Positions 41,650-45,549 of a stretch of 64,000 nucleotides of DNA are shown in pieces. The first letter of the stretch is position 1, and each line of letters starts with the position of its first letter. The position numbers and the translations under genes are program-made. The notes beneath the pieces were generated by a model. That model searched no databases. It worked only from the letters and a program-made list of their open reading frames with translations, and was not told the DNA's origin. Location of the stretch: positions 186,001-250,000 of the forward strand of contig NZ_CP016774.1 of the NCBI RefSeq assembly GCF_002288105.1. Direction: 5' to 3'. This DNA comes from Candidatus Planktophila versatilis. Its GTDB lineage: Bacteria > Actinomycetota > Actinomycetes > Nanopelagicales > Nanopelagicaceae.

Positions 41650-42732
41650 ATGGCTAACGATCGTTTTGCATCAGCACATGAGATGGTGCGTGAATATCAA
41701 GAACTTGAAACAAAGATGGCTGACCCATCCATCCATGAAGATCAAGGCAACGCCCGTAAATTGGGTCGTCGCTATGCCCAGCTTGGCCCAGTCGTTGCCG
41801 GATTTAATGCATGGAAATCTGCCGCAGATGATTTAGAGGCAGCTAAAGAGATGGCAGAAGATGATGCATCTTTCGCCGCTGAAATTCCGGCAATGCAGGC
41901 AGTTGTTGAGGCAGCGGCGCAGAAGTTAGAAGAGTTGTTATTGCCGCGTGATCCCAACGATGACCGAGATGTCATCATTGAAGTCAAAGCTGGTGCAGGC
42001 GGAGATGAATCGGCGCTCTTTGCTGGCGATTTAGTACGTATGTATCAGCGCTATGCCGAAAAGCGTGGTTGGAAAATTGAAATTCTTGATATGAACGAAT
42101 CAGAACTCGGTGGTTATAAAGATATTTCGATGGCGGTGAAATCAAAAGGAACGCCAGAGCCTGGAACAACACCGTATGCACGACTTAAATTTGAGGGCGG
42201 AGTACATCGCGTGCAACGCGTGCCAGAGACTGAGAGCCAAGGACGTATCCACACTTCGGCTGCCGGTGTACTTGTCTTGCCGGAAGCAGAAGAAGTTGAT
42301 GTTGAGCTCAATATGAATGATGTGCGCGTAGATGTCTATCGCTCATCTGGTCCCGGAGGACAGTCGGTAAACACCACTGACTCTGCGGTGCGACTTACTC
42401 ACGTTCCAACTGGCATTGTGGTTTCCTGTCAGAACGAGAAATCTCAACTACAGAATAAAGAATCTGCCCTTCGTATTCTGCGTGCTCGCTTACTAGCCGA
42501 TGCGCAGGAGAAAGCTGAAGCTGCTGCAATGGCCGAGCGCAAAAGCCAGGTGCGCACAGTTGATCGTTCTGAGCGAATTCGCACATATAACTACCCAGAG
42601 AATCGCCTCAGTGATCACCGCGTGAATTACAAAGCCAATAACTTAGATGCGGTCCTTAACGGTGAGCTAGATGAGGTTGTGCAAGCACTCCTCGATGCCG
42701 ACAGAGCAGCAAAGCTCTCCGCTACTAACTAA
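41650..42732 (+). CDS. prfA: Peptide chain release factor 1
   Basis: 360 residues with the GGQ motif (SGPGGQSVN) and the PxT recognition motif as PET in RVPETESQ, diagnostic of RF1, which reads UAG and UAA. The prmC gene, whose product methylates the GGQ glutamine, follows after 21 bases. Confidence 0.98.
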
Positions 42733-42753: not shown

Positions 42754-43608
42754 ATGGAACTTACCTTCAAAGAATTCTTACGAGGCGGTAAGGAGCAGTT
42801 ATCAGCTGCAGGCTTTGCTGAGGTCGAAGCCGAACATCTACTTGCACACACACTTGGCTTAACTCGCATGGATCTACATAACCCGCTCACAGTTGAAAAT
42901 GCACTGACTGCAATTGGAGATATTTCAATTGTGGAAGAGACTTTCTGGAAGCTACTTGATCGCAGATGTGCCAACGAGCCGCTGCAATATCTCACTGGTG
43001 TTGCCTATTTCAGACATCTAGAGATCAAAGTCGGCCCTGGCGTTCTAGTGCCACGGCCCGAGAGTGAATTGCTTGTCGAGTCAGTTCTTACTCATATTGA
43101 AAAGTTAAGTGGCGCCATCAGTGTTGTTGATCTCGGTGCGGGTTCTGGCGCCCTTGCGCTAGCAATTGCCACTGAAGCGCCCAACACTCATGTGATTGCA
43201 GTAGAAAAGAGCGCTGAAGCAATTTACTGGCTGAAAGAGAACATCTCTTTTATTGATGAAAAAGTGCGCATAGTTGAATCAGATGTATCGACTGCACTCG
43301 ATGGCGTGAAATGCGATGTGGTCATTGCAAATCCGCCATATATTGCTGATGGACAAGAGTTGCCAGCTGATGTGCGCGAGCACGAACCTGCAATCGCCCT
43401 CTTTGGTGGGGCAGATGGAATGAAAGCTCCAAGGCTTTTTATTGCAGCCAGTGCGCGGCTGCTTAAGCCTGGAGGATTCCTTGCAATTGAACATCATGAA
43501 TCACAGGGTGATGAAATTGCTGCCGTACTTAATATAGATTTCCAAGATATTCTTCTGCATCAGGATTTGACTGGACGTCCGCGCTTTACCACCGCGGTGA
43601 GGAGATAA
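42754..43608 (+). CDS. prmC: Release factor glutamine methyltransferase PrmC
   Basis: 284 residues: an N-terminal helical domain, then a SAM-binding domain with VVDLGAGSGALALAIA and the catalytic NPPY in IANPPYIADG. It methylates the GGQ glutamine of RF1 and RF2. It is placed directly after prfA and 2 bases before the tsaC-like gene. Confidence 0.96.
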   Translation: MELTFKEFLRGGKEQLSAAGFAEVEAEHLLAHTLGLTRMDLHNPLTVENALTAIGDISIVEETFWKLLDRRCANEPLQYLTGVAYFRHLEIKVGPGVLVPRPESELLVESVLTHIEKLSGAISVVDLGAGSGALALAIATEAPNTHVIAVEKSAEAIYWLKENISFIDEKVRIVESDVSTALDGVKCDVVIANPPYIADGQELPADVREHEPAIALFGGADGMKAPRLFIAASARLLKPGGFLAIEHHESQGDEIAAVLNIDFQDILLHQDLTGRPRFTTAVRR

Positions 43609-43610
43609 CG

Positions 43611-44252
43611 ATGGCTCCTCGTATTGACCTAAAAAAAGGTGACTCAAAGAACCATATTGCCAAAGCTCTTAAATCTATTCGCGATGGTTACGTCATTGTT
43701 GTACCAGCAGAGCATGGCTACATTTATCTAGCTGATGCGTTCTCGCATTTTGCTGTGCGTGCGATGCATGTCTTGCGTGGTGATGAGCTAGGAATATCTG
43801 CCCAAGTTCTCTGTCATTCAGCCCAGACCGTGCAAGGAATTACGCGGGATGTGCGGGGCGATGCACAGAAATTAATGGATGAATTCTGGCCGGGCTTACT
43901 CTCACTTAATCTGGCACCTAACCGAGGACTTAACTGGGATCTTGGTGATGACAACTCACTTGATTTAATTAGCATCAGAGTTCCAAAATCACGCTTCCTG
44001 CGCGCTCTGCTTAAAGAGTCGGGTCCACTTGCCGCAGCCAGTGCTTCACCGGCAGGAGATGCGCCGATGCTCGCAATTGATCGCAGTGCAATCAAGAGCT
44101 GGGATGTTGCAACCGTATTTGATAACGGGGTGCTGAAATCAGGCCAGCCCACAACTGTGATTGCACAGAGAAATGGCGGACTTCACATCCTGCGCGAAGG
44201 CGCAATTTCGGCTGCCCAAGTGAGAAAAATCGCCCCGAGCGTTTCTGAATAG
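43611..44252 (+). CDS. Divergent TsaC/Sua5/YrdC-like protein
   Basis: 213 residues in the place of sua5 after prmC. The fold is recognisable from FWPGLLSLNLAP, the DLISIRVP strand and GPLAAASASPAG. However, the usual P-T-D/E-T near the N terminus is PAEH (32-35), the KxR motif that binds ATP/threonine is replaced by RGDE (56-59), and the SxN motif is SAS (144-146). Standard members make threonylcarbamoyl-AMP for the essential t6A tRNA modification. It may be an altered or inactive paralogue, with a canonical copy elsewhere, or a divergent active enzyme. Confidence 0.75.
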   Translation: MAPRIDLKKGDSKNHIAKALKSIRDGYVIVVPAEHGYIYLADAFSHFAVRAMHVLRGDELGISAQVLCHSAQTVQGITRDVRGDAQKLMDEFWPGLLSLNLAPNRGLNWDLGDDNSLDLISIRVPKSRFLRALLKESGPLAAASASPAGDAPMLAIDRSAIKSWDVATVFDNGVLKSGQPTTVIAQRNGGLHILREGAISAAQVRKIAPSVSE

Positions 44253-44286: not shown

Positions 44287-45549
44287 ATGTCCGAAACCTT
44301 CTATGGCCCAGATTTCACACTTCTTTCCAAGCAAGACCCTGATATTGCTGCGGTGTTGCTCTCGGAACTCAAGCGTCAACAGACCAATCTGCAACTGATT
44401 GCTTCCGAGAACTTCACATCACGGGCGGTACTTGCAGCTCTCGGTTCAACGCTATCGAATAAATATGCGGAAGGTTATCCGGGCAAGCGTTACTACGGTG
44501 GGTGTGAAGAAGTTGATAAGGCCGAGAATATTGCGATCGAGCGCGCACAGTCTCTCTTTGGTGCAGAGCATGCAAATGTGCAACCCCATTCAGGTGCGAG
44601 TGCAAATATCGCTGTCTATCAAGCATTTACCAAGCCAGGAGATACCGTCCTTGCGATGTCACTTCCACATGGTGGCCACCTGACCCACGGATCCAAAGTT
44701 AACTTTTCCGGTAAATGGTTCAACATCGTTTCTTACGGCGTGCGTCAAGACAATGAACTTATTGATTACGACGAACTGCGCGACTTAGCGATTGCCAACA
44801 AGCCGAAGATGATCTGTTCTGGAGCAACTGCCTATCCATCATTAATTGACTTCGAGAAGGTGCGCGCGATTTGTGATGAAGTTGGGGCAATCATGTGGGT
44901 AGATGCTGCTCACTTCATTGGACTCGTTGCCGGTAAAGCGATTCCTTCACCTGTGCCATATGCAGATGTAGTTTCATTTACTACTCACAAAGTACTGCGC
45001 GGCCCACGTGGTGGAATGATTTTATCCAAGGCAGAGCACGCAGCGGCGATTGATAAGGCAGTCTTTCCTGGCATGCAGGGTGGTCCGATCATGTCGGCAG
45101 TTGCAGGCAAAGCGATCGCACTTGCAGAGTGTGCAACTCCGGCCTATCAAAAGTATGCAAAAGATGTCATCGTCAACGCACAATCATTGGCCGCCGCCCT
45201 TGAAGCAGAAGGCATGCGCGCAGTTTCTGGTGGAACCCAGACCCACTTGGCGCTCATTGATATTCGCTCCACCGGAGTTAATGGAAAAGTAGCTGACGAG
45301 CGTTGTGGCGCAGCCGGCATAGTTCTTAATAAGAACTCAATTCCTTATGATCCAGAAGCACCATCAGTCACATCAGGTATTCGCGTGGGAACACCAGCAA
45401 CTACAACGCAGGGAATGGGAACAGGGGAGATGAAGACAATCGCATCTCTGATTGCTCGCGCCATTAAGACAGATGATGCATCGGCACATGCTGCGATTAA
45501 ATCTGAAGTCCACGCTCTTACCGCACGTTTTCCTATCTACGAGGCGTAA
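44287..45549 (+). CDS. glyA: Serine hydroxymethyltransferase
   Basis: 420 residues, PLP fold-type I, with the Schiff-base lysine in FTTHKVLRGPRGG and the NKYAEGYPGKRYYGG motif. It interconverts serine and glycine and supplies one-carbon units. It has a leaderless promoter and is followed after 13 bases by wecA. Confidence 0.98.
   Translation: MSETFYGPDFTLLSKQDPDIAAVLLSELKRQQTNLQLIASENFTSRAVLAALGSTLSNKYAEGYPGKRYYGGCEEVDKAENIAIERAQSLFGAEHANVQPHSGASANIAVYQAFTKPGDTVLAMSLPHGGHLTHGSKVNFSGKWFNIVSYGVRQDNELIDYDELRDLAIANKPKMICSGATAYPSLIDFEKVRAICDEVGAIMWVDAAHFIGLVAGKAIPSPVPYADVVSFTTHKVLRGPRGGMILSKAEHAAAIDKAVFPGMQGGPIMSAVAGKAIALAECATPAYQKYAKDVIVNAQSLAAALEAEGMRAVSGGTQTHLALIDIRSTGVNGKVADERCGAAGIVLNKNSIPYDPEAPSVTSGIRVGTPATTTQGMGTGEMKTIASLIARAIKTDDASAHAAIKSEVHALTARFPIYEA

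Follow-up and report, generated by a model that had tools for sequence, protein, structure and literature searches.

t6A is an essential tRNA modification, and TsaC/Sua5 belongs to the small number of nearly universal protein families. In a survey of TsaC and Sua5, few species were found to carry both proteins, the Thr or Ser preceding the SxN motif was described as a TsaC signature, and sequences lacking the tetrad (KRSN) were removed before the signature-residue alignment and the transfer screen (PMC10321239). Verrucosispora maris and Microlunatus phosphovorus have been reported to carry two or three rimN (TsaC) paralogues (PMC3571937). Among PF01300 paralogues, YciO is already known and has trace activity and an unsolved function (PMC12506659). 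The regulatory pseudoenzymes KSR and HER3 have been brought up beside YgjD–YeaZ (PMC3695523).

Here we describe a TsaC-like protein encoded in a 64,000-nucleotide stretch (the window) of the genome of Candidatus Planktophila versatilis (contig NZ_CP016774.1, positions 186,001–250,000). The protein resembles short TsaC (YrdC) in its single-domain length, fold, place after prmC, FWPG/RxP/GPLA/RxG blocks and tree position, but differs in having the tetrad R-D-S-S, in the loss of Thr33 and the signature Ser/Thr, and in the presence of an intact Sua5 in the genome. With Sua5 (TsaC2) it shares a homologous catalytic domain, and its closest solved structures belong to that group; however, it contains neither Sua5_C nor the HY loop, and structural alignments give only 21–22% identity. 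Like YciO, which was judged non-equivalent to the synthase in vivo, it is a PF01300 paralogue found beside a real synthase, but YciO forms a separate clade and largely conserves the active-site residues (PMC12506659), whereas the window protein does not. It is also comparable to KSR and HER3 in that catalytic residues were lost, fold and constraint were kept and an active paralogue is present in the same cell; unlike for these, any partner or regulatory effect is putative. A literature search covering few subscription journals found nothing on t6A in Nanopelagicales or on Planktophila Sua5, and the texts examined in it on actinobacterial TsaC2 and on YrdC/Sua5 paralogues or pseudoenzymes contained no report of the variant.

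Locus, fold and ancestry

The host genome of the window is a single contig of 1,331,009 bases, in which the gene and its neighbours are arranged as follows (window positions).

41650..42732, + strand: prfA, peptide chain release factor 1, of the same cluster (open reading frame; GGQ region of the translation, by eye)
42754..43608, + strand: prmC, release factor glutamine methyltransferase, NPPY present, directly upstream (open reading frame, named by eye)
43611..44252, + strand: TsaC-like protein of 213 amino acids, operon TsaC orthologue with a dismantled active site (open reading frame; PF01300; tree; AlphaFold2; Foldseek)
44287..45549, + strand: glyA, serine hydroxymethyltransferase, downstream neighbour (open reading frame, identified by eye)

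The tsaC start follows the prmC stop codon by 2 nt, and glyA begins after a further 34 nt. The sequence-only reading had placed 43611–44252 in the sua5 position of a conserved gene order, and this holds: the gene is the TsaC orthologue of the prfA–prmC–tsaC cluster. Of 36 further family loci examined, 33 had a prmC relative upstream, and in 29 of the 33 family loci at which spacing was measured (from the start codon nearest the prmC stop) the tsaC start overlapped the prmC stop or followed it within 3 nt. PrmC–TsaC fusions, suggested by stop-to-stop frames of 494–546 amino acids, were dropped given that the NPPY motif is present in none of them. The family in question is f1 of our genome sample, which we infer to be Candidatus Nanopelagicaceae, where Candidatus Planktophila is classified by NCBI. 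The host group is freshwater-dwelling and abundant in that habitat, and some contigs with a relative derive from lakes and ponds.

Profile searches identified the window protein as a genuine member of PF01300 (79.5 bits, cut-off 25.1); its match to the NCBIfam equivalog for L-threonylcarbamoyladenylate synthase (TIGR00057) reached 109.1 bits, below the cut-off of 123.2. The TsaC fold is confidently predicted to be kept: an AlphaFold2 model (pLDDT 86.7, pTM 0.84) had Sua5 of Pyrococcus abyssi as its best Foldseek match (6f89, E 4.4e-16, TM 0.85), and Escherichia coli YrdC (1hru) matched with a TM of 0.68. The protein ends after the TsaC domain, with no C-terminal Sua5 domain (PF03481) or HY loop, and PF03481 was found in the genome only at the other PF01300 locus.

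A tree of 69 PF01300 proteins, built with a quick method (SH-aLRT supports), united 20 family copies in one clade (96), nested within the operon TsaC group (93), adjoining two copies from family f5 (86) and apart from the Sua5 and YciO-type rows. The five YciO-type rows, assigned by length and sequence with no family search behind the label, formed their own clade (SH-aLRT 100), which did not include the window protein. On the basis of tree and gene order, the window gene is orthologous to the actinobacterial operon TsaC, and its placement in the tree indicates that the lineage's own TsaC was altered in place and is not an acquired paralogue. A search for phage relatives found none.

Replacement of the catalytic motifs

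Four sites in the protein mark what was replaced and what was kept.

43704..43721, + strand: PAEHGY in place of PT(D/E)TVY, residues 32–37; Ala at the Thr33 position, Tyr37 kept (alignments)
43776..43784, + strand: RGD in place of KxR, residues 56–58 (alignments)
44037..44048, + strand: A-SAS in place of S-SAN, residues 143–146; the TsaC-signature Ser/Thr before SxN also gone (alignments)
44193..44195, + strand: Arg195, the threonine-site Arg, kept in 57/57 family copies read

The register was fixed by a phmmer alignment to P. abyssi Sua5 (6f89) and by MAFFT alignments. Relative to that protein, T33 is replaced by A33, K56xR58 by R56-G57-D58 and S143xN145 by S144-A145-S146, S181 becomes T181, and R195 is retained. 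The KxR/SxN tetrad accordingly reads R-D-S-S, with Ser the sole survivor; at the threonine site (P. abyssi Sua5 numbering), R195 is kept, T181 is a conservative change and A33 represents the lost T33. The signature residue before SxN is A143 in the window protein; 94% of 33 intact operon TsaC proteins have Ser there. Pairwise and multiple alignments give one register, ruling out shifted motifs, so that the replacements first noticed in the letters (PAEH, RGDE and SAS for P-T-x-T, KxR and SxN) stand exactly where those motifs would be, and the WPG and GPLA regions are retained, as had also been claimed. The window protein is thus confirmed as a TsaC orthologue with replaced catalytic motifs.

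With Lys, Arg and Asn all replaced, and Arg by an acid, synthesis of TC-AMP by the window protein is unlikely. In yeast Sua5, mutations in the ATP and threonine pockets severely impair t6A formation (PMC3695523 and PMC10321239). E. coli YciO retains trace TC-AMP synthesis in vitro, which counts against assuming inactivity (PMC12506659).

An intact Sua5 in the same genome

The genome contains a second PF01300 gene (G000:C1:1189331-1189879, 182.9 bits), which encodes a two-domain Sua5 of 334 amino acids with PTETVYG, KGR, PSAN, an HY loop and a Sua5_C domain (PF03481, 60.4 bits). Genes for TsaD, a TsaB-like protein and TsaE are located at C1:1055764-1058103. The sequence-only reading had offered two ways out of the problem posed by an essential modification, another TsaC or an altered active site, and had proposed a genome search for a second TsaC/Sua5 and for TsaD/TsaB/TsaE. 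The former proved right, and the search recovered Sua5, TsaD, the TsaB-like protein and TsaE. Its interpretation is therefore supported overall, and t6A supply is not at risk, given these intact components; Sua5 probably carries out the first-step chemistry of t6A synthesis, judging from gene content. A strong Sua5 match was present in 17/17 single-contig family genomes; every complete genome of the family whose members share the altered residues carries an intact Sua5. Among the relatives examined, no functional enzyme with the same residues was found; the proteins that share them appear, by sequence, to be the same altered family copies.

In the genome's own Sua5 (L001 1144..2148, − strand), the position of Asn62, a residue reported as Sua5-specific (PMC10321239), is apparently His (KGRPADHPL), and apparently also in the other actinobacterial Sua5 rows aligned.

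Retention and constraint across the family

The altered copy was found in 156 of 159 family genomes that were at least 85% complete (family profile, best E 1e-37 or lower) and in all 17 single-contig family genomes. In drafts G080, G092 and G104 the best profile match was far weaker, and the sole PF01300 match was Sua5. Motif positions were read in 57 family copies (36 + 20 + the window copy), which represent 14 of 16 genera. None of the 57 has the tetrad Lys, second Arg or Asn, ruling out a sequencing accident, and the tetrad Ser is kept in 51. The Lys position is occupied by R or H, position 58 by D (47 copies) or by S, A, M, V or N (10 copies), position 146 by a small residue (S, A, T, G or V) and position 35 by H, N, S or G; Thr33 is present in one copy and the TsaC-signature Ser/Thr in eight. 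Tyr37 is invariant, as is Arg195, and the FWPG, WDLG, RxP and GPLA blocks show little or no variation.

The dN/dS of family copies ranged from 0.043 to 0.125, with a median of 0.054 (Nei–Gojobori, aligned domain; 22 pairs, of which 20 were usable; some sequences recur in several pairs, so the pairs are not independent). Whole, untrimmed frames gave a median of 0.074 (21 usable of 23 pairs, one duplicated), and the family Sua5 gave 0.080–0.139 (seven untrimmed pairs). With such low values, family tsaC is under strong purifying selection and is not decaying. Reading frames are open across the whole domain in the family copies read.

At several positions (R56, D58, H53, Q65, F129 and E34) the family has exchanged one conserved residue for a different one, with E34 also being the usual letter in Sua5. 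These switches, the unvarying R195 and Y37 in 57 copies and the very low dN/dS speak for a neofunctionalized enzyme, in which the pocket would have been rebuilt around H35, R56 and D58 for another small molecule or reaction while reusing the carboxylate site (R195, S/T181). However, the new residues are not strict (D in 47/57 at position 58, with positions 35 and 146 variable), and prmC, the neighbour compared, showed no change that would hint at a pathway. We regard such a new enzyme as unlikely and favour a TsaC that became a conserved pseudoenzyme.

Some sequence features were noted alongside these counts. A two-residue insertion after WDLG (window 43947-43964, residues 113–118) is typical of the family and absent in intact TsaC, and maps to the part of the AlphaFold2 model with the lowest confidence. 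One copy (L065, G215:C3:16500-19100) ends approximately 10 residues early, with the profile match crossing a TGA stop. Draft G003 has, in addition to the usual family copy, a second, divergent TsaC-like copy (L040, G003:C13:7700-10200; PTEF/RND/SAS), which was left out of the counts. This copy likewise has no tetrad Lys, second Arg or Asn, and may be a contaminant that stems from a different lineage in which erosion was of the same kind.

Drafts apparently without Sua5

Sua5 and the tRNAs beside it look absent in many near-complete metagenome-assembled genomes, and in many near-complete family drafts PF01300 matched only once, in most cases to the weakly scoring altered copy. A PF03481 screen of 26 such drafts left 24 without a match; G208 has a truncated Sua5 at a contig edge and G083 a PF03481 match below the cut-off. 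Eighteen of the 26 were followed up (17 of the 24, plus G083). Drafts G175 and G213 each have a second, weak PF01300 match.

In complete genomes (L098–L100), Sua5 is flanked by tRNA-Lys on one side and a tRNA-Glu-Asp-Phe cluster on the other, and the genes around it vary by genome. The locus is an island hot spot, and its variable spot next to tRNA-Lys(ttt) is seen in the window's genome (L098, G000:C1:1181000-1199000) as well as in L099 and L100.

A test with two neighbouring proteins placed the first one mid-contig with no Sua5 nearby in several drafts, which spoke for a real absence of Sua5. The tRNA-Glu/Asp/Phe cluster, a better marker of the locus, was absent in 17 of the 18 followed drafts (10/10 in the window's genus), and in the eighteenth, G199, it lies 4 bases from a contig end. 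Among Sua5-bearing controls, 14 of 16 had most or all of the cluster; in control G042 the Sua5 contig ends inside it, and control G001 has only 26 identical bases of it. The comparison included no complete control for the draft genera g32, g33, g34, g41 and g45. Cells need tRNA-Glu, tRNA-Asp and tRNA-Phe, so that, where their cluster is missing, the Sua5 locus is likelier to have been lost from the assembly than from the cell. The idea that these drafts live on the altered copy alone was rejected, as 17 of the 18 without Sua5 also have no adjoining tRNA cluster and are likely assembly gaps.

These drafts bear on the reading in which the protein continues to make TC-AMP through an altered active site, as a backup to Sua5. 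The window protein does retain the overall fold, R195, S144 and Y37, and YciO is a TsaC paralogue with trace activity (PMC12506659). In contrast, three of the four tetrad residues are replaced in 57/57 copies, with an acid for Arg in 47 and Thr33 replaced in 56, and no genome was shown to rely on the altered copy, given the missing tRNA clusters. A backup synthase is therefore improbable, and a pseudoenzyme remains the reading that we prefer.

Tetrad loss outside the family

Our class sample comprised 295 genomes at least 95% complete, with a Sua5_C match in 73, of which 28 are in the family. Among non-family genomes, loss of tetrad residues from the operon-type copy was seen in 28/40 Sua5-bearing versus 0/23 Sua5-lacking genomes (Fisher p 1.7e-8, a value that ignores descent, 13 of the 28 eroded copies coming from one family, f33). 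Among 44 Sua5-bearing non-family genomes, 39 were read, three (G245, G252 and G292) were left out and two (G438 and G443) have no second copy; the fortieth genome is G052, the Sua5 of which was judged by PF01300 alone, and G432, with only a 19-bit match, was excluded from the set. The 23 Sua5-lacking genomes include 15 without a Sua5_C match and eight judged by PF01300 alone (two of these 72–78% complete). Operon place was presumed where no upstream prmC relative was found (5/40 Sua5-bearing and 2/23 Sua5-lacking), and rows taken as YciO (L082, L138, L142, L144, L157 and L159) were dropped before counting.

The eroded non-family copies lost Ser in 24 of 28, the second Arg in 14, Asn in 6 and Lys in 4. 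Family copies mostly keep Ser and always lose the other three, and erosion by such different routes fits a loss of catalysis better than convergence on one reaction. On an independent prmC tree (85 rows), a minimum of 6 changes is required to explain erosion and 7 to explain Sua5 presence; an independent-pairs test yielded 4 pairs, with 2.2 in the expected direction and 0 against (median p 0.5), too few for significance but agreeing in direction with the uncorrected count.

The whole tetrad is kept in 12 of the 40 Sua5-bearing genomes (three of f19, two of f20, 4/7 of f17, 1/3 of f37 and two of f5), and 2 of the 44 (drafts G438 and G443) have no second PF01300 gene, indicating that neither erosion nor retention is obligatory. 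Among non-family copies, the dN/dS values of eroded ones (0.15–0.31; 8 pairs, of which 5 usable) were not distinct from those of intact ones (0.12–0.43; 5 pairs). In the two f5 copies, the tetrad is kept and both Thr of PTxT are lost. These copies (L068 and L069, from genomes G079 and G052, with PADSSY and AADSSY) are the nearest non-family relatives in the tree and perhaps represent an early stage of the same erosion process.

Erosion of the same gene in multiple Sua5-bearing lineages is what relaxed selection predicts, and two Sua5-bearing drafts show no second copy; both points would suit a decaying remnant, kept only for its place inside an essential operon from which removal would harm the neighbours. 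Within the family, however, dN/dS is near 0.05–0.07, frames are open through the domain save for the early end in G215 (L065), the FWPG, WDLG, RxP and GPLA blocks are (nearly) invariant, and the gene is kept in 156/159 genomes, small as these are. We consider a remnant very improbable, and a pseudoenzyme under selection the better account. Three features go beyond what had been read from the window: the altered copy extends across the family, it is strongly conserved, and other Actinomycetia with Sua5 show parallel cases.

Proposed role and implications

The explanation that we hold to be reasonably probable is that a vertically inherited TsaC turned into a conserved pseudoenzyme, kept for a non-catalytic role while Sua5 supplies TC-AMP. 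On gene content, intact Sua5 would make TC-AMP for TsaD/B/E; with this supply secured, TsaC catalysis would have become dispensable and the ATP-binding tetrad could have been dismantled (Lys to Arg, Arg to Asp and Asn to a small residue), while the protein would have kept its fold together with some of its amino-acid side (Tyr37, Ser/Thr181 and Arg195). The old TsaC would most probably have been retained to bind or regulate a component of translation, with its production tied to that of PrmC and RF1. We infer from gene order, namely the position of the gene, its coupling to prmC and its cluster with prfA, that the role is linked to translation. Sua5 would have taken over a synthesis that the window protein would no longer perform. 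Mutations in E. coli yrdC (rimN) reportedly suppress a release-factor-1 mutant, which we treat as a lead only. Two points run counter to this explanation: the family-typical polar replacements R56, D58, H53 and Q65 would suit a new ligand or reaction better than a bare scaffold, and the prmC/prfA gene order, from which the partner and translation link is drawn, is the same whether the tsaC motifs are intact or not.

The findings describe a tetrad-less family conserved throughout a freshwater bacterial group, with tetrad loss going together with Sua5 presence across the class sample, and thereby a natural separation of TsaC catalysis from whatever else the protein does. They also carry a warning for annotation: where a Pfam match occupies the sua5 position in these genomes, the name TC-AMP synthase should be avoided. 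More tentatively, TsaC might serve throughout the Actinomycetia in a second function that does not depend on TC-AMP. If so, take-over by Sua5 would expose the second function, the catalytic residues would erode repeatedly and by different routes while the gene stays by prmC/prfA, and Candidatus Nanopelagicaceae would retain only the second function, as a dedicated pseudoenzyme.
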